The position numbers were made by a program, and so were the translations under genes. Below, piece by piece: positions 12,044 to 33,575 of a DNA stretch of 47,812 bases; the stretch's first letter is position 1, and every line of letters begins with the position of its first letter. This DNA comes from a virus. The stretch is from IMG/VR virus record IMGVR_UViG_3300028809_000022, positions 1-47,812 of that record. One strand, written 5' to 3'. A model generated the notes under the pieces. That model ran no database searches and was not told where the DNA came from. It worked only from the letters and a program-made list of their open reading frames with translations.

Positions 12044-12237
12044 CGGCGTTGCCTAAAATGGACCGCGCTAGCCGTGCTGCTTGGCAGCATGTAGCTGCGC
12101 ACAAACGCCGTTGGTACCAGCTAGGATCGGGGTTTCGCCGGAGCTTTTCGGTCGTATCAGACGTTAAGTTTTACCACTCAGTGCTTCTGAAATACGCGCG
12201 AACGGGGGAGAAGTTCGACCCTTACTGGTGGGCCTAA
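12040..12237 (+). CDS. Hypothetical basic protein, 65 aa
   Basis: ATG 12040 overlaps the previous stop and follows GGAGG at 8 bases, better placed than the in-frame ATG at 12025. The protein is basic and aromatic (HKRRWYQLGSGFRRSF), ending EKFDPYWWA. Its stop overlaps the polymerase exonuclease gene start (TAATG), so the two are probably coupled. The role is unknown. Confidence 0.6.
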   Translation: MTALPKMDRASRAAWQHVAAHKRRWYQLGSGFRRSFSVVSDVKFYHSVLLKYARTGEKFDPYWWA

Positions 12238-13310
12238 TGAACCTCGACAAATGCCTATTCCTGGACACGGAAACCTTCTGCGAAACGCCCATCAACAACG
12301 GGACGCACCGTTATGCAGAAGGCGCCGAGATCATCATGTGGCAGTGGGCGGTCGGCGATGGGCCTGTCGAGATCCGCGATGGGGACGAAGACGTTTCGGA
12401 TCTCTTCGAGCTACTGGCTGACCCTTCTTACGAGATCGTGATTCAGAACTCTGCTTTTGATCGCGCTGTCATGTGGCACGCGATCGGCCACTGGGTAGAG
12501 ATTGAGCGGGTCTTCGACACGATGGTCTGCGCCATGGCACACAGTCTCCCGGGCGCTCTGGAGAAGCTGTGCGATATCCTAGGTGTTGCGACCGATAAGG
12601 CCAAGGACAAAGCGGGTAAGGCGCTGATTCAGCTGTTCTGCAAGCCCCGGCCTAAGAACAGCAAGTTGCGTCGCGCTACCCGGGAAACGCATCCTGTCGA
12701 GTGGCAAGCTTTCCGCGACTACGGCGGGAACGACATTGAGGCTATGCGCGAGGTCTACAAGAAATTGCCGCGCTGGAATTACCGCGGTGCAGAGCTTGAG
12801 CTGTGGCACCTCGACCAGCGAATTAACGAGCGCGGCGTATTGCTAGATCTCGACCTGGCGCACGGCGCTATCCGTGCCGCTGACCGGGCGCAGAAGCAGC
12901 TAGCGAAGCAGACAGTCGAAATGACGGACGGTCAAGTCACCGCTGCTACGCAGCGCGACAAGATGCTCGAATACATCCTCGAAGAGTACGGCATTGTCTT
13001 CGCCGACCTCAAAGGGAGCACCGTGGAAAAGGCCCTAGCCGATGTCGACATGCCTGTCGAGTTGAAAGAGCTGTTGATAGTTCGCTTGGAGGCTTCGAAG
13101 ACGTCGGTAAGCAAGTACAAACGTGCGCTTAGCGGTGTCAGTAGCGATAACCGGATGCGTGGTACAGCGGCATTCTGTGGCGCAGGCCGCACCGGGCGAT
13201 GGGCAGGCCGCCTCCTACAGCTGCAGAACCTTCCACGCCCGACCATCAAGAATAAAGAAATCGAGCTTTGGATCGAAGCAATCAAAGCCGACTGTGAGGA
13301 CTTGGTATGA
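12237..13310 (+). CDS. DNA polymerase A, N-terminal piece (3'-5' exonuclease and start of the polymerase domain)
   Basis: 357 residues. The proofreading motifs are intact: Exo I FLDTET (Asp10, Glu12), Exo II N-x3-FD (IQNSAFDRAVMW), Exo III YGGNDIEAM. Near the C-terminus, GAGRTGRWAGRLLQLQNLPRP is the conserved family A block that comes just before motif A in whole enzymes. The protein then stops at 13310, where a whole enzyme would go on to motif A. The missing part begins almost at once in the gene at 14014. The stop overlaps the start of a methylase-like gene (ATGA). Confidence 0.88.
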   Translation: MNLDKCLFLDTETFCETPINNGTHRYAEGAEIIMWQWAVGDGPVEIRDGDEDVSDLFELLADPSYEIVIQNSAFDRAVMWHAIGHWVEIERVFDTMVCAMAHSLPGALEKLCDILGVATDKAKDKAGKALIQLFCKPRPKNSKLRRATRETHPVEWQAFRDYGGNDIEAMREVYKKLPRWNYRGAELELWHLDQRINERGVLLDLDLAHGAIRAADRAQKQLAKQTVEMTDGQVTAATQRDKMLEYILEEYGIVFADLKGSTVEKALADVDMPVELKELLIVRLEASKTSVSKYKRALSGVSSDNRMRGTAAFCGAGRTGRWAGRLLQLQNLPRPTIKNKEIELWIEAIKADCEDLV

Positions 13311-14017
13311 AAGCTATTTTTCTTTACGACTACACAGGGTTCATGGCGCAACCATGGCTTGATGCTGGATACGAATGTTGGCTGTTCGACGGTCAGCATC
13401 CCGAAGGTGTAACAAGGGAAGGGAACCTCATAAAGGTCGGCATGTGGTTCGACCCTTACAAACTGCGCGAGCACGCTGCGAAGATCGCGGATCTAGTCGG
13501 AGAGAATGTCGTTCACATTTTCTCCTTCCCGGAGTGTACAGACCTCACCAACGCCGGAAGTGGTAGCTGGGCAAAAAAGCGAGCTGCGAATCCGATGTTC
13601 CAGCAGGAGGCAGTCACCCTCGCCCAATTGGCGGCCGTGGTCGCCGACAAAACCGGGTGCGATAGCTGGGCGGCGGAGAACCCTGTGGGTAAGCTCTCCA
13701 CACTTTGGCGTAAACCGGATTTCTGGTTCGATCCGTGCGACTTCGGCGGGTACCTACCGCTAAACGACCGCCACCCGCTGTACCCTGATATCTACCCTCC
13801 GCGGGACGCCTACAACAAAAAGACAGGTATATGGGCCGGCAAAGACTACGTTCAGCCTTTCCGTAAAAGGATCGAGCCTTTCCACAAAGACAATCCAGGC
13901 TGGGCGAAGTGTGGTGGTAAGTCTACCCGCACGAAGAATATCCGCAGCTCCACTCCTCGGGGGTTCGCGATCGCTAATTTCCAAGCCAATGCTCCTCACT
14001 TGCGGGGTCTCGTATGA
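13307..14017 (+). CDS. DNA cytosine methylase-like protein between polymerase pieces
   Basis: 236 residues. The N-terminus (IFLYDYTGFMAQPWLDAGYECWLFD) fits the SAM-binding start of cytosine-C5 methylase relatives. FPECTDLTNAGS places Cys77 at the site of the catalytic Cys in the phage 'PPCT' family, although Pro is replaced by Glu. AENPVGKLSTLWRKPD and the C-terminal KSTRTKNIRSSTPRGFA are also features of that family as I know it. Activity is uncertain because of the PEC change. It begins and ends in ATGA overlaps with polymerase pieces, so all three are translated from one message. It could protect phage DNA by methylation. Confidence 0.65.
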   Translation: MKAIFLYDYTGFMAQPWLDAGYECWLFDGQHPEGVTREGNLIKVGMWFDPYKLREHAAKIADLVGENVVHIFSFPECTDLTNAGSGSWAKKRAANPMFQQEAVTLAQLAAVVADKTGCDSWAAENPVGKLSTLWRKPDFWFDPCDFGGYLPLNDRHPLYPDIYPPRDAYNKKTGIWAGKDYVQPFRKRIEPFHKDNPGWAKCGGKSTRTKNIRSSTPRGFAIANFQANAPHLRGLV

Positions 14018-14949
14018 CTTCGGTAATGGAAGCCTGCAGCAGTGCAATTCGCGGGCTCATAGTCGCGCCGCCTAAAAAGAAACTGGTTATCGCCGACTTG
14101 AGTAACGTAGAAGGGCGTGTACTCGCCTGGCTGGCCGGCGAGTCTTGGAAGCTTCAAGCGTTCCGGGAATACGACACGCAGCAAGGTGAGGACGGCAAGT
14201 GGTACACCGGTGACGAGATTAACGCTGCAGCACTGCGCGGAACTCCCATAGCTGTCGAGCTAAACACGAAGGGCGATCCTATAACGCTTGGGCATGACCT
14301 CTACAAACTGGCCTATGCGAAGGCGTTCGGGATTGATCCCGCCGACGTAGATGGGTTCATGCGCCAAATAGGCAAGACGATGGAACTGGCTCTAGGATTC
14401 GGTGGAGGGTGCGGCGCGTTCATCACCTTCTCACTCGCTTTCAACATCGACCTTGAAGCAATGGCCGATAAGGCATACAGCAACATCCCACAAGCTACCC
14501 TAGATGAAGCCGCCAGCTTCCTCGAATGGCAACTCGGCCAGGGTAAGAGCCAGTTTGGCCTGTCTGACAAAGCGTTCATCGTCTGCGAGAGTTTCAAGCG
14601 CTTGTGGCGCGAATCTCACCCGGCGACTAGCAGCTACTGGAAAGACCTCGAAGGTGTCGTCCGTTCTGCGATCCAGAATCCCGGGCAGACTCTTACCTGC
14701 CGCAAGCACAAAGTTCGTCGTGACGGCGCTTGGCTGCGCATCATGCTGCCTAGCGGACGATATCTGTGCTATCCGTCTCCGCGTGTCGAAGATGACGGTG
14801 GGATCACCTACATGGGCGTGAACCAATACACCCGGAAGTGGGAACGAATCCGCACATACGGTGGCAAGTGCGTCGAGAACTGCACTCAGGCAGCCGCCCG
14901 CGATGTGATCGCCCGATCAATGCCGAGGATTGAAGCATGGAGACCGTAA
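14014..14949 (+). CDS. DNA polymerase A, palm/fingers piece (motifs A and B)
   Basis: 311 residues, ATGA-coupled to the methylase-like gene. Motif A is [17 protein letters not shown] (catalytic Asp28, Glu33). Motif B is [16 protein letters not shown] (Arg117, Lys121). The sequence just before motif A ([20 protein letters not shown]) joins smoothly to the end of the 12237-13310 protein, so little or nothing of the ancestral enzyme is lost. The product stops at 14949, ahead of motif C, which is in the next, overlapping frame. Alone it cannot be a polymerase. Confidence 0.88.
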
Positions 14950-15134
14950 AGCAGTTCGACCAGGGCTTCGAGATCGTCGTCACCGTGCACGACGAAATCA
15001 TCTGTGAGGCGCCCGATGATCCCGCTTTCAACGATGGGGTTTTAGCAGCCCTCATGGCCCAAGGCGAAGACTGGACAGAAGGCTTACCGCTCGCCGCAGC
15101 CGGCTTCGAAGCGTATCGCTACCGGAAAGGTTGA
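14937..15134 (+). CDS. DNA polymerase A, C-terminal piece carrying motif C
   Basis: 65 residues. [16 protein letters not shown] holds motif C with His18-Asp19-Glu20, the second catalytic carboxylate of family A polymerases. The frame is -1 to the preceding piece, overlapping it by 13 bases. ATG 14937 has its own ribosome binding site, GAGGA at 14925-14929 with 7 bases between. The -1 frame is closed by TGA at 14931, so any frameshift would have to occur within about 15 bases, and no slippery heptamer is present there. Separate translation and assembly, or a recent frameshift mutation, are the two readings. Confidence 0.75.
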
Positions 15135-15159
15135 CTACAAGTCGAATCTTGCATAAGCT
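15131..15159 (+). promoter_or_regulatory. Weak promoter candidate with ACAAG element
   Basis: TTGACT (15131-15136), a 17-base spacer and TAAGCT (15154-15159). The spacer begins with ACAAG-TCGAAT-CTTGC (15137-15152), close to the inverted repeat of the early promoters but placed directly against the -35 box. It lies in the gap after the last polymerase piece. Confidence 0.4.
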
Positions 15160-15386: not shown

Positions 15387-15700
15387 AACGCGATATAGAA
15401 GCCTACCTCGTCAAGCGCTGCAAAGAGATTGGCGCGCTTTGCGACAAGTTCACCTCGCCGAGTCGTCGTTCGGTTCCCGATCGGCTGATCACGTTCGGCG
15501 GGCGCGTGTTGTTCGTTGAGCTGAAAGCGACCGGCAAAAAGCCTACCGAAGCGCAGGCGCGCGACCACGAGCGTCGCCGTGCTGCGGGTGCCGAAGTGGT
15601 TTGGCTGGATAGTGAAGCGGGGGTTGATCTAGTCGTTAATCGCGTTCAGACGAACTGGGCAGTTTTGGTAGATGAAAATTACAAAGTGAGGGATGCGTGA
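15380..15700 (+). CDS. VRR-NUC domain nuclease
   Basis: 106 residues, a stand-alone VRR-NUC of the PD-(D/E)xK superfamily. Catalytic residues are visible as Asp34 (VPDRLI), Glu47-x-Lys49 (FVELKATG) and Gln59 (EAQ). Single-domain phage members cut branched or flapped DNA structures and are regular partners of the DUF2800/DUF2815/polymerase/helicase module. It probably processes replication or recombination intermediates. It overlaps both neighbours. Confidence 0.88.
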   Translation: MLERDIEAYLVKRCKEIGALCDKFTSPSRRSVPDRLITFGGRVLFVELKATGKKPTEAQARDHERRRAAGAEVVWLDSEAGVDLVVNRVQTNWAVLVDENYKVRDA

Positions 15701-16203
15701 TGGAGACGCTCCAGGGGTTCACTTGGGAGTTTCTCAACTCCCTTTTCTACTACGAAGATGGTCTGGTGCGCCGCAAGGTAAAACGTGGACCACGCCTTGC
15801 GCACGCCGTTGTGGGTTCGGTCGATGGCAAAGGCTATCTGCATGTGAACGTTGAAGGGAAATTTGTGCGGCTGCATAAGCTTATCTATTTCCTCTTCCAC
15901 AAGACCGTGCCGCAGGAGGTCGACCATAAGGACCGAGATCGGAGAAACAACCGAATCGACAATCTGCGCGGTGCGACGCGCCAGCAGAATTCCGGCAACA
16001 TCGGCATGTTCAAGCACAACACTTCAGGCTTTAAGGGCGTTGTGTACATCAAAGGCAAGAACAAGTGGGACGCGCGAATCAAGATCAACGGCAAGCAAGT
16101 TTACCTAGGCAGGCGCTCTACGCCTGAAGAAGCCTCTCAGCTTTACGAAGCAGCAGCGCGCCAGCACTTCGGAGAATTCGTAGGTAAGAACCATGCCGAT
16201 TGA
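15700..16203 (+). CDS. HNH homing-type endonuclease with AP2 domain
   Basis: 167 residues. ATG 15700 shares a base with the preceding stop and has GAGG 8 bases upstream. The HNH_3 core is HKLIYFLFHKTVPQEVDHKDRD, then NNRIDNLRGAT. A C-terminal AP2 DNA-binding domain follows (SGFKGVVYIKGKNKWDARI, then KQVYLGRRSTPEEA). This domain pair is typical of free-standing homing endonucleases. It sits between the VRR-NUC and helicase genes, which are usually adjacent, so it is likely an inserted selfish gene. It overlaps the helicase start by 11 bases. Confidence 0.88.
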   Translation: METLQGFTWEFLNSLFYYEDGLVRRKVKRGPRLAHAVVGSVDGKGYLHVNVEGKFVRLHKLIYFLFHKTVPQEVDHKDRDRRNNRIDNLRGATRQQNSGNIGMFKHNTSGFKGVVYIKGKNKWDARIKINGKQVYLGRRSTPEEASQLYEAAARQHFGEFVGKNHAD

Positions 16204-17590
16204 TTACAAGCCGCACAAATATCAGGGGCTCATCATCTCAGCCATTCAGTCGATCAAGCGTATAGCTGTGTGGGCTGGCATGGGTTTGGGCAAGAGTGTA
16301 AGCACGGCCACGGCGCTTGAGGACTTGTCCCTGGCCGAAGAGGTCTACCCGGTTTTGGTTATCGCGCCACTCCGGGTAGCACGGACCACATGGCCGCAGG
16401 AGTACCGGAAGTGGAACCACTTGAAACATCGCAGCGTCGTGACCATTTGCGGCTCGGCCAAGGAAAGGCAAGCAGCGTTGCGAGCCAAGGCGGATATCTA
16501 CACGGTCAACTTCGAACAGCTCGAATGGCTTGTCGAACAGCTTGGCGATAAGTGGCCTTTCCGCACTGTCGTAGTGGACGAGGCGACCAAGCTCAAGGGC
16601 TTTCGGCTGCGCCAGGGCACACGAAGGGCCAAAGCCCTGGCTCGTGTTGCACACACCAAGATCAAGCGCATCATCCTGTTGACCGGTACGCCAAGCCCTA
16701 ATGGCCTCCAAGACCTTTGGGGGCAGATGTGGTTCGTTGATAAGGGTGAGCGACTGGGCCGAACCTACGACGCTTTCAAGCAGCGCTGGTTCCGAGCTTC
16801 GCATACCGGCTTTGGCGTTGAGGCTACAGAGAACGCGCAGGAGCAAATCCAGAAAGCTTTGGGCGACGTGTGCATCACGATTGACGCCGCGGATTGGTTC
16901 GACCTCAAAGAGCCAATCGTGAACGTCATTAAGGTGGATCTCCCGCCTGCTGCTCGCGTTCTATACAAGGACATGGAAAAGAAGATGTTCATGGAGCTAG
17001 AAGGATCTGAAGTTGAAGCCCTGAATGCCGCTGCCAAGACGCAAAAGTGCCTCCAAATTGCCAGCGGGGCCGCGTACGTGGATGGGGGGCCTGCGTGGAA
17101 AAAGATCCACGATGAAAAACTGCAGGCGCTCGAAGAGATCCTAGAGGAAGCGGCGGGTATGCCGGTTCTAGTGGCGTATCACTTCAAGAGCGACCTTGAA
17201 CGCTTGCTAGCGCGTTTCCCTCAAGGCAAACACCTAGACAAGAAACCCGAGACGATCGACGCTTGGAACCGGGGAGAAATCCCGATCATGTTCGCCCATC
17301 CGGCCAGTGCGGGTCACGGTTTGAACCTGCAGGACGGGGGCAACATCCTGGTATTTTTCAGTTTAAACTGGTCATTGGAAGAGCATCAGCAGATAATAGA
17401 GCGGAACGGCCCGGTTCGTCAGCTTCAAGCCGGCCATAACCGCCCCGTGTTCCACCACTTCATCATGGCAGCCGATACGGTGGATGAACTTGTCCTGGAG
17501 CGCCTGCAAAGCAAGCGAGAGGTACAGGATATCTTGCTCCAGGCGATGAAGGAGAGGGGCTTCAACCCTATCGAAGAGAACGCCGCATGA
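16193..17590 (+). CDS. SNF2/DEAD-type helicase
   Basis: 465 residues, superfamily 2. Motif I AGMGLGKS lies near 27-34, motif II VVVDEATK near 127-132 and motif III LLTGTPSPN near 160-168. The C-terminal RecA lobe has ASAGHGLNLQDGGN and IIERNGPVRQLQAG in the place of motifs V and VI. This family accompanies the DUF2800-polymerase module in many phages and probably unwinds or remodels DNA at forks. It ends in an ATGA overlap with another HNH gene. Confidence 0.9.
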   Translation: MPIDYKPHKYQGLIISAIQSIKRIAVWAGMGLGKSVSTATALEDLSLAEEVYPVLVIAPLRVARTTWPQEYRKWNHLKHRSVVTICGSAKERQAALRAKADIYTVNFEQLEWLVEQLGDKWPFRTVVVDEATKLKGFRLRQGTRRAKALARVAHTKIKRIILLTGTPSPNGLQDLWGQMWFVDKGERLGRTYDAFKQRWFRASHTGFGVEATENAQEQIQKALGDVCITIDAADWFDLKEPIVNVIKVDLPPAARVLYKDMEKKMFMELEGSEVEALNAAAKTQKCLQIASGAAYVDGGPAWKKIHDEKLQALEEILEEAAGMPVLVAYHFKSDLERLLARFPQGKHLDKKPETIDAWNRGEIPIMFAHPASAGHGLNLQDGGNILVFFSLNWSLEEHQQIIERNGPVRQLQAGHNRPVFHHFIMAADTVDELVLERLQSKREVQDILLQAMKERGFNPIEENAA

Positions 17591-18075
17591 AAGATCTAGC
17601 GCTAGAAGATGTTACGCGAGTCCTTAACTACGACCCTGAAACGGGGCTATTCACCTGGAAGTTGTACCGAAATTGGCGCTCCCTAGCGGGGTCGGTGGCC
17701 GGGGCAATAGACTCCCATGGCCACCGGCAGATCCGGGTAAACCACCGGCTGCATTTCGCTCACAGGCTGGCGTGGCTCTACGTCCATGGGGTACCCCCGT
17801 CGGGGGACGTAGACCACATAAACGGTGTGAAGGACGATAACCGAATCGCCAACCTCCGGGATGTACCAACCAGTATCAACTGTCAAAACGAGATACGCGC
17901 CCGTTCTAACAACGGCTGCGGATTCTTAGGCGTAACCAAGAAGAAATACGCCTACCTTGCGCAGATACACGCGAACGGTAAGAAGATTCATCTAGGGAGC
18001 TTCCGGACCGCCGAAGCTGCACACGAAGCCTACCTCAAGGCTAAAAGAGAATTGCACCCCGGTAACACTCTATGA
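17587..18075 (+). CDS. HNH homing-type endonuclease with AP2 domain (second)
   Basis: 162 residues, ATGA-coupled to the helicase. The HNH_3 core is FAHRLAWLYVHGVPPSGDVDHI, then DDNRIANLRDV. An AP2-type end follows (LAQIHANGKKIHLGSFRTAEAAHEAY). The domain order is the same as in the 15700-16203 protein but the sequences have diverged, so the two are separate arrivals or an old duplication. It probably has a homing role. The next gene starts in its stop codon. Confidence 0.87.
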   Translation: MKDLALEDVTRVLNYDPETGLFTWKLYRNWRSLAGSVAGAIDSHGHRQIRVNHRLHFAHRLAWLYVHGVPPSGDVDHINGVKDDNRIANLRDVPTSINCQNEIRARSNNGCGFLGVTKKKYAYLAQIHANGKKIHLGSFRTAEAAHEAYLKAKRELHPGNTL

Positions 18076-32759: not shown

Positions 32760-33575
32760 TCAAACCACCATCTTATAGCGTTTAAAGCTAACGATTTGAG
32801 AGATCAAGGTTTGACTAACACCGAACTCTTCTGCTAGGTGGGACTGACGTTCGCCATTGGCTACCCTGCTGCGGATATCTAGGATTTGTTCGCGGGAGAA
32901 CTGCCCTCTGGACATGCTACTGGCGAGTTTGAATTCATCAGTGTGCTTCCTTCCGATCAGCGCTGCTCTGGTTTTCTCGATAGCCTCTTGCGGGCGTTTC
33001 CGACCCCGGAGTTTTTGCATACGCTTTTCTATCGTTTCGGCCGATTGTTTCTTACCGGTGTTTAGTTCCCGCAGATGCTGCTTACGTTCCTCGGAGATAG
33101 TACGACCGCGATGTGCTGCAGCGATCTTCGCTTTGGTCTCTGCCGATAGGACTCGCCCGACCCCTTTACCCTTACGCCCGGCGCTAATTCGTTCGCAAAC
33201 CTCCTTAGGTTCTGTGCGGCCTCGACGATGCGTATTTCCGCGGGCACGTTCGGCTGCTGCCGTTTTGGCTTCGTATGTGTGCCGGTACCCAAGAACAGAG
33301 CCGGCAACCTTGCAGATGTTGTACGCGGGTTTCAGAACGTCGATAGCGCGTTGCTCGTACCAGATCAGATCGGCCTTAGCGCATACGAGCAGTTTTTTGA
33401 ACTGGAAGGCGGCTTCGCCGTACTTGTTCCAAGCGCGCTGCATAACCGTAGAATGATGTTCGCCGTTCGATAGCTGGCGAACATGTTCTTTCCATCGCTT
33501 GGTGAAGCTGACAGCGCTTCCGACGTAGCACTTGCCGTTCTGTAGGTTCGTGATCTGGTAGATGCCGGTATTCAA
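32760..33575 (-). CDS. GIY-YIG homing endonuclease
   Basis: 271 residues. It starts with TTG at 33575, with GGGGAG 6 bases upstream. The GIY-YIG catalytic domain is at residues 1-90 (TGIYQITNLQNGKCYVGSA, with Arg27 in TKRWKEH and a Glu in WYEQRA). Then there are repeated NUMOD3-like segments (SAETKAKIAAAHRGR; SEERKQHLRELNTGKK) and a C-terminal HTH (RQSHLAEEFGVSQTLISQIV). This is the layout of I-TevI-like homing enzymes. It lies between the tape measure and its chaperone, which are otherwise contiguous, so it is a free-standing insertion. Confidence 0.9.
   Translation of the reverse strand: MNTGIYQITNLQNGKCYVGSAVSFTKRWKEHVRQLSNGEHHSTVMQRAWNKYGEAAFQFKKLLVCAKADLIWYEQRAIDVLKPAYNICKVAGSVLGYRHTYEAKTAAAERARGNTHRRGRTEPKEVCERISAGRKGKGVGRVLSAETKAKIAAAHRGRTISEERKQHLRELNTGKKQSAETIEKRMQKLRGRKRPQEAIEKTRAALIGRKHTDEFKLASSMSRGQFSREQILDIRSRVANGERQSHLAEEFGVSQTLISQIVSFKRYKMVV

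Follow-up and report, generated by a model that had tools for sequence, protein, structure and literature searches.

Several phage enzymes are known to be encoded in pieces with another gene lying between them. The two chains of the family B polymerase of phage 25, gp43A and gp43B, copurify and polymerise, and it has been suggested that the seg endonuclease gene may have entered a gene that was already split (PMC2988022); gene 43 of phages 25/44RR is thus a replicative DNA polymerase made as two chains. In nrdA/mobE of phage Aeh1 (cited in PMC2988022), an essential phage enzyme is likewise made as two chains whose coding parts are separated by another gene, and its function is kept. A mobile HNH gene interrupts the PolB gene of Pseudomonas phage MIJ3 (PMC6892783), and homing endonuclease gene (HEG) islands around essential phage genes place homing endonucleases at exchange boundaries with an unstable content of cognate sites (PMC10448857). 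The closest described system is that of the Methylophilales phages MEP401 and MEP402 (PMC10580990), in which a family A DNA polymerase is split, with the gene order gp13, gp14 (77 residues) and gp15. In the present study we analysed a split family A DNA polymerase in the IMG/VR virus record IMGVR_UViG_3300028809_000022, whose whole length of 47.8 kb is called the window. The segment examined, 12237-15134 on the plus strand, contained four head-to-tail genes: EXO, a methylase-like cassette gene, PALM and TAIL (Table 1). We consider it probable that EXO with its part of the thumb, PALM with the fingers, and TAIL work as one complex, an active replicative polymerase, and that its gene was split first and became a docking slot for other genes later.

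An initial annotation, made from the sequence alone, had recognised EXO, PALM and the methylase-like gene joined to both by ATGA overlaps, and our analysis confirmed these genes, their places and the joints. It had counted three proteins from one message. The start/stop coupling and one likely message held up, but the chain bearing motif C had been overlooked: PALM stops at 14949 while that chain starts at 14937 in another frame, so the segment encodes four proteins and the polymerase is in three pieces. By consensus, neither promoters nor terminators were detected within the segment, and the downstream pieces would be translated by termination-reinitiation. The initial annotation had proposed that this coupling keeps the dose of the chains equal, but the process often reduces the downstream product (PMC2988022).

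The three polymerase pieces matched adjoining stretches of phrog_17, the PHROGs DNA polymerase profile, and are therefore colinear with almost no loss. This had been claimed in the initial annotation, and comparison with 30 aligned uninterrupted relatives bore it out: of the 688 residues of an intact relative, just 358, 631 and 632 had no counterpart in the pieces. The genuine changes in the 128 invariant columns, which were defined from 28 intact polymerases, were L255F, Q312A and I390V only; the other listed mismatches were TAIL and PALM ends misplaced by the aligner and were set aside. The exonuclease motifs DTET, NSAFD and YxxxD were all found in EXO, motifs A and B in PALM and motif C (catalytic HDE) in TAIL, with the catalytic Asp residues kept. 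The ratios of nonsynonymous to synonymous substitution rates (dN/dS) against the nearest split relatives, given only where dS could be estimated and rough because many dS values were near or past saturation, were 0.03-0.13 for EXO, 0.009-0.10 for PALM, 0.014-0.28 for TAIL and 0.05-0.13 for the methylase, and they indicate purifying selection on all four genes; TAIL was 97-98% identical to its nearest relatives (dN/dS 0.014-0.03). No other DNA polymerase was found among the large window genes scanned, which included a primase-helicase, tape measure, portal, head protein and terminase. The sequence indicates that the phage carries a replication module like that of Bordetella phage BPP-1 with a family A polymerase: Bbp42 of BPP-1 was 55-59% identical with the same domain order and similar neighbours (exonuclease, single-stranded DNA-binding protein, endonuclease, helicase), but it is a single uninterrupted 688-codon gene.

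Table 1. Features of the split polymerase locus and of its surroundings in the window (SD, Shine-Dalgarno sequence)
Feature	Position	Strand	Description	Basis
EXO	12237-13310	+	3'-5' exonuclease and part of thumb, family A DNA polymerase, 357 residues; C-terminus ...EDLV	PF01612 E=7e-8 (above cut-off); phrog_17 positions 670-989, E=6e-49
Seam 1, left copy	13296-13310	+	SD GAGG 13296-13299; GACTTGGTATGA 13299-13310; EXO stop TGA overlaps cassette ATG (ATGA 13307-13310)	
Cassette gene	13307-14017	+	Putative DNA methyltransferase of C5-cytosine-methylase fold, 236 residues; FPEC and ENP motifs	phrog_757 E=8e-66
Seam 1, right copy	14004-14017	+	SD GGGG 14004-14007; GGTCTCGTATGA 14006-14017; cassette stop overlaps PALM ATG (ATGA 14014-14017)	
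PALM	14014-14949	+	Palm and fingers, 311 residues; motif A ADLSNVEGR (Asp28 codon 14095-14097), motif B; C-terminus ...PRIEAWRP	phrog_17 positions 993-1171, E=3e-36; phrog_7766 E=4e-39; PF00476 E=9e-6 (under curated cut-off)
Seam 3	14925-14949	+	SD GAGG 14925-14928; TAIL ATG 14937; PALM TAA 14947-14949; overlap in other frame	
TAIL	14937-15134	+	C-terminal palm piece, 65 residues; motif C VHDE (Asp19 codon 14991-14993)	phrog_7766 E=2e-19; phrog_17 positions 1177-1232, E=6e-9
Conserved word	15129-15146		GGTTGACTACAAGTCGAA, directly 3' of the polymerase stop	
HNH/AP2 endonuclease gene	15697-16203		On one side of SNF2-type helicase gene	
HNH/AP2 endonuclease gene	17587-18075		On other side of SNF2-type helicase gene	
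GIY-YIG/NUMOD3 homing endonuclease gene	32760-33575	-	Just upstream of tape measure gene, structural region	

The history of the split was read from seam 1, where EXO gives way to PALM. Three IMG/VR searches, two with EXO and PALM and the third with an EXO alignment, yielded 35 different contigs, counting the window, in which seam 1 could be read. The seam was intact in two of them (L104, L107), split without an insert in 10 (L006, L039, L085, L086, L096, L097, L100, L109, L115, L118) and split with an insert in 23, the split thus being common to 33 related contigs. The inserts, whose families were read from representatives and assigned to the remaining contigs by similarity, were of at least eight kinds, including three methylase classes and two types of HNH endonuclease. 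A phrog_757 methylase was found in the window, L005, L037, L113 and L108, an N6/N4 methylase (PF01555) in L008, L088, L089, L093, L105 and L119, and a C5 methylase (PF00145) in L092, L095 and L099. HNH genes carried either NUMOD4 (L091, L106) or AP2 (L098, L102, L103, L117, and L108 behind its methylase), and the remaining inserts were phrog_839 in L111, phrog_12600 in L087 and a 40-codon open reading frame in L110. DUF7220 stood before the methylase in L092 and L113.

The initial annotation had proposed that insertion of a gene created the split. Our results spoke against this, since ten split relatives are free of inserts, the seam matches a native TATGAC and the inserts vary between near relatives. 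Intact outgroups, which are cultured phages and prophages, carry ...GAYCTNATCTATGACAAC... at seam 1, most clearly in L127, L128 and L133, so that TATGAC is already present at the seam position in unsplit genes. In L118, the most divergent split member, the seam reads GAGGACTTGATCTAATGCC / ATCTAATG, with stop and start together and no insert, and other split members read GAGGACTTGGTATGACAACG. Because of these two observations, the stop/start of the seam is read as the native TATGAC unmasked by small insertions or deletions (indels). In the concatenated tree the split clade had a support of 100/100, and the insert-free members were scattered through it. The intact L104 and L107 nested deep within the clade, and forcing them out was rejected by the approximately unbiased (AU) test (p=1e-4, concatenated); since the exo and palm parts have mosaic histories, the test was repeated on palm and tail alone with the same outcome (AU p=2e-5). 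The E354 codon, which lies in the Shine-Dalgarno sequence, encoded Glu in 33/33 split genes and Ala in 58/63 intact outgroups, and both L104 and L107 still have Glu there; these two are best read as re-fused genes. With TATGAC in the intact outgroups, an insert-free most divergent member and a nested intact pair, the most likely history from the sequences is that small indels first split the gene, that other genes docked afterwards and that some copies were re-fused.

The opposite order, in which an HNH homing endonuclease entered an intact gene, made the split and was later lost or replaced by methylases, seemed unlikely to us, although it is the rival that survives best and has a precedent in Aeh1 nrdA (PMC2988022). 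HNH genes of two types sit exactly at seam 1 in seven relatives, which bears out the earlier remark that the seam is the kind of site used by homing elements, and the window phage is rich in HNH and GIY-YIG endonucleases. Inserted HNH genes were found only in the relatives, the window insert being a methylase. The groups formed by the HNH carriers are shallow, and several of them have a junction sequence of their own. The ten insert-free split relatives are spread over all subclades, the most divergent included, and the junction is the native TATGAC plus small indels. Marks of introns or inteins, whose absence from the insert had been pointed out in the initial annotation, were not detected: no Rfam family reached the gathering score in the window, group I and II introns included, and the signs of split inteins (Cys/Ser1, TxxH of block B, C-terminal HN) were absent from the window seams.

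A split that came first could have arisen as follows. In the linker that precedes motif A, small indels would have shifted the frame, so that the native ...D-L-I-TATGAC... became a stop that overlaps a start, and GAG-GAY just upstream would act as the Shine-Dalgarno sequence; because of this overlap and this ribosome-binding site, the gene could have survived as two coupled genes. The stop/start junction would then have become a docking slot for whole genes, namely three kinds of methylase, HNH homing endonucleases and small genes. The docked genes would be swapped between phages, most of them ending with a copy of the junction (Shine-Dalgarno sequence plus GAYYTNGTATGA) that restarts translation of PALM. 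A second seam before motif C would have formed later and given the third chain.

The junction repeats agreed with such a slot. Exact GAYYTNGTATGA stood at both ends of the insert as paired 12-mers in ten contigs (L005, L007/L089, L008, L010/L095, L017/L088, L018/L113, L037, L053/L092, L077/L093, L078/L099), and most methylase cassettes were flanked by this sequence, which is the source of the Shine-Dalgarno sequence and the stop/start. In the window the left copy was exact and the right one had a single mismatch. The right copy gives the cassette protein a C-terminal xDLV, which is missing in related methylases elsewhere, and gives PALM its GGAG/GGGG Shine-Dalgarno sequence. Identities of cassette and polymerase did not vary together for two methylase families: the methylases of L005 and L108 were 86% identical and their palms 70%, while those of the window and L005 were 66% identical and their palms 90%. 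Since the two similarities fail to track each other, the cassettes have been exchanged between phages. Inserts differed freely between near relatives, and at least 20 state changes of seam content were required on the tree. The repeats may serve as sites of recombination in this exchange, endonuclease-driven repair may bring it about, or both may act. Whether the seam is a standing slot for swappable cassettes, the split being kept because cargo gains a protected and always-expressed home in an essential gene, is in our judgement evenly poised.

Exchange was also seen within the polymerase. The exo and palm parts had different relatives (e.g. exo 92% and palm 70%) in L108, L102, L093, L099, L119 and others, with the breakpoint inside the exo/thumb part, the polymerase domains themselves thus being exchanged.

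The initial annotation had called the cassette methylase-like, and structural analysis agreed with it. The model of the 236-residue protein (pLDDT 93) had a C5-cytosine methylase fold, matching DNMT3A with Z 13.4 and M.HhaI with Z 12.6 over about 193 aligned residues, and the catalytic Cys77 (FPEC) and Glu124-Asn125-Pro126 (motif VI, ENP) were invariant in 48 relatives. PF00145 did not match the window protein, and a profile built from the methylase found no match among sequences of the Protein Data Bank; the assignment as a DNA methyltransferase of this fold was made from the predicted structure, which supports it. Free-standing phrog_757 relatives occur in many phages, distant from any polymerase, and their C-termini lack the xDLV tail. 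The cassette methylase probably shields the phage DNA from restriction.

The second split, at seam 3, was found in eight contigs (window, L005, L006, L037, L039, L086, L089, L110). It is conceivable that programmed -1 frameshifting reads through this seam and yields a single PALM-TAIL chain in a two-chain enzyme, as TAIL overlaps PALM by a short stretch and is in frame -1 with respect to it. We hold this to be improbable, since a slippery heptamer was not visible in GAAGCATGGAGACCGTAA, while the GAGG Shine-Dalgarno sequence stood 8 nucleotides before the ATG/GTG in all eight split forms and was absent elsewhere; CCGAGGATYGAARC followed by RTGG, with ATG or GTG as start, was present in 8/8 of these contigs and absent where the gene is contiguous. 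Independently of this split, the same polymerase gene carried inteins (Cys1, TPDHL, C-terminal HN) at two different sites: those of L089 and L113 lie upstream of motif C, those of L037, L039 and L086 at motif B, with approximate coordinates L089:8657-9556, L113:8836-9723, L086:7449-8177 and L037:5115-5933; their middle parts of about 200 residues had no Pfam match. A big in-frame insertion was found near motif C in L147.

The model of the intact relative L107 (pLDDT 89) matched Klenow 1kfs (E=2e-17) and the Pol I of phage G20c. On this model, seam 1 fell in the loop that joins helix 339-350 to helix 362-373 (about residues 351-361) and seam 3 at the turn from helix 606-631 to strand 635-640 (about residues 632-634), predicted places where a chain end would leave the core unbroken. 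The earlier claim that the polymerase is split over chains that must assemble is supported by the sequence, and assembly of three chains into one working enzyme would have precedents in Aeh1 NrdA and phage 25 gp43A/B (PMC2988022). The chains might instead act apart, with EXO as a stand-alone nuclease, PALM and TAIL separate or inactive, and a host polymerase replicating the phage. Stand-alone phage exonuclease subunits do exist, and a weak match to phrog_403 was seen, but we judge this very unlikely: EXO includes the thumb, PALM and TAIL share motifs A, B and C between them yet all three motifs are kept under strong purifying selection, and the pieces keep the same order and stay together in every relative, re-fusion to one chain having happened. 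That the window, a single metagenomic contig, carries an assembly error or a gene decaying like the copies in Arsenophonus prophages can be dismissed, since contig L004 carries an identical segment, 32 other contigs from many samples are split alike, in place of the always intact relatives considered in the initial annotation, and dN/dS was low among the contigs tested.

Several points weigh against the three-chain polymerase with a split-first history. Complex formation and activity are inferred from the sequence, and PALM alone scored under the Pfam curated cut-off: against the PF00476 gathering score of 34.3, PALM reached 25.3 and TAIL 11.9, because each contains only part of the domain, and the intact L107 reached 52.2. 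The common form of the seam is two indels away from the native sequence, and a gene may have been inserted earlier and then lost cleanly. The mosaic genes, with different histories of exo and palm, weaken any single tree, and the basal place of L118 was weak in the palm-only tree (72/74). Every split member is a metagenomic contig, and no cultured phage of this form was found. Compared by megablast, a 9.7 kb stretch matched no cultured phage, and EXO by itself found nothing in GTDB genomes; the scan with the EXO alignment gave outgroups only, 17 of them intact and the others decayed or cut prophages. Among the prophages, the copies in Arsenophonus endosymbionts (L138, L139, L142) had a frameshifted polymerase, as expected for decaying prophages.

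In the neighbourhood of the polymerase, GGTTGACTACAAGTCGAA was conserved letter for letter at its place behind the polymerase in more than 25 contigs; a sigma-70 consensus scan found no promoter at this sequence, and in L111 a methylase gene stood soon after it. Near the polymerase, the SNF2-type helicase gene has an HNH/AP2 endonuclease gene on either side, and a GIY-YIG/NUMOD3 homing endonuclease gene lies in the structural region.

If this reading is correct, an essential gene broken by an ordinary frameshift can survive by translational coupling and then host other genes, and phages could trade genes for DNA modification and for endonucleases within the gene of an essential enzyme without harm to it. 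Empty, filled and re-fused seams coexist in close relatives, which makes the insertion-first and split-first origins of genes in pieces directly testable. The locus would also provide a naturally occurring family A polymerase made of three chains, one of which, of 65 residues, carries motif C.

Comparison with the known systems showed how far the locus departs from them. Unlike in genes in pieces made by homing endonucleases, it is a methylase and not an endonuclease that lies between the pieces in the window. In Aeh1 nrdA the insert is the homing endonuclease itself and a single insertion explains the split, whereas the window relatives include splits without an insert and varying, mostly methylase inserts. 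Gene 43 of phages 25/44RR is of family B, with one kind of insert and two chains, whereas the window polymerase is of family A, with three chains and at least eight kinds of insert among its relatives. The chains of MIJ3 PolB are joined by a split intein, whereas the window seams lack intein signatures. The sites of the HEG islands lie between or beside genes, and the text of that paper does not mention methyltransferases. In MEP401/402, phages of the unrelated Zobellviridae, gp13 ends just before motif A and gp15 begins at motif A, but motifs A-C are on one chain and cassette exchange was not described. A literature search that covered few subscription journals found no methylase inside a split polymerase gene, and in the literature searched we found no description of swappable methylase or endonuclease cargo at the seam of a split polymerase, of a separate chain for motif C, or of re-fusion. 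A phage enzyme in pieces with an intervening gene is thus a known arrangement, and on the basis of this search the three-chain active site and the interchangeable cassette slot appear to be new.

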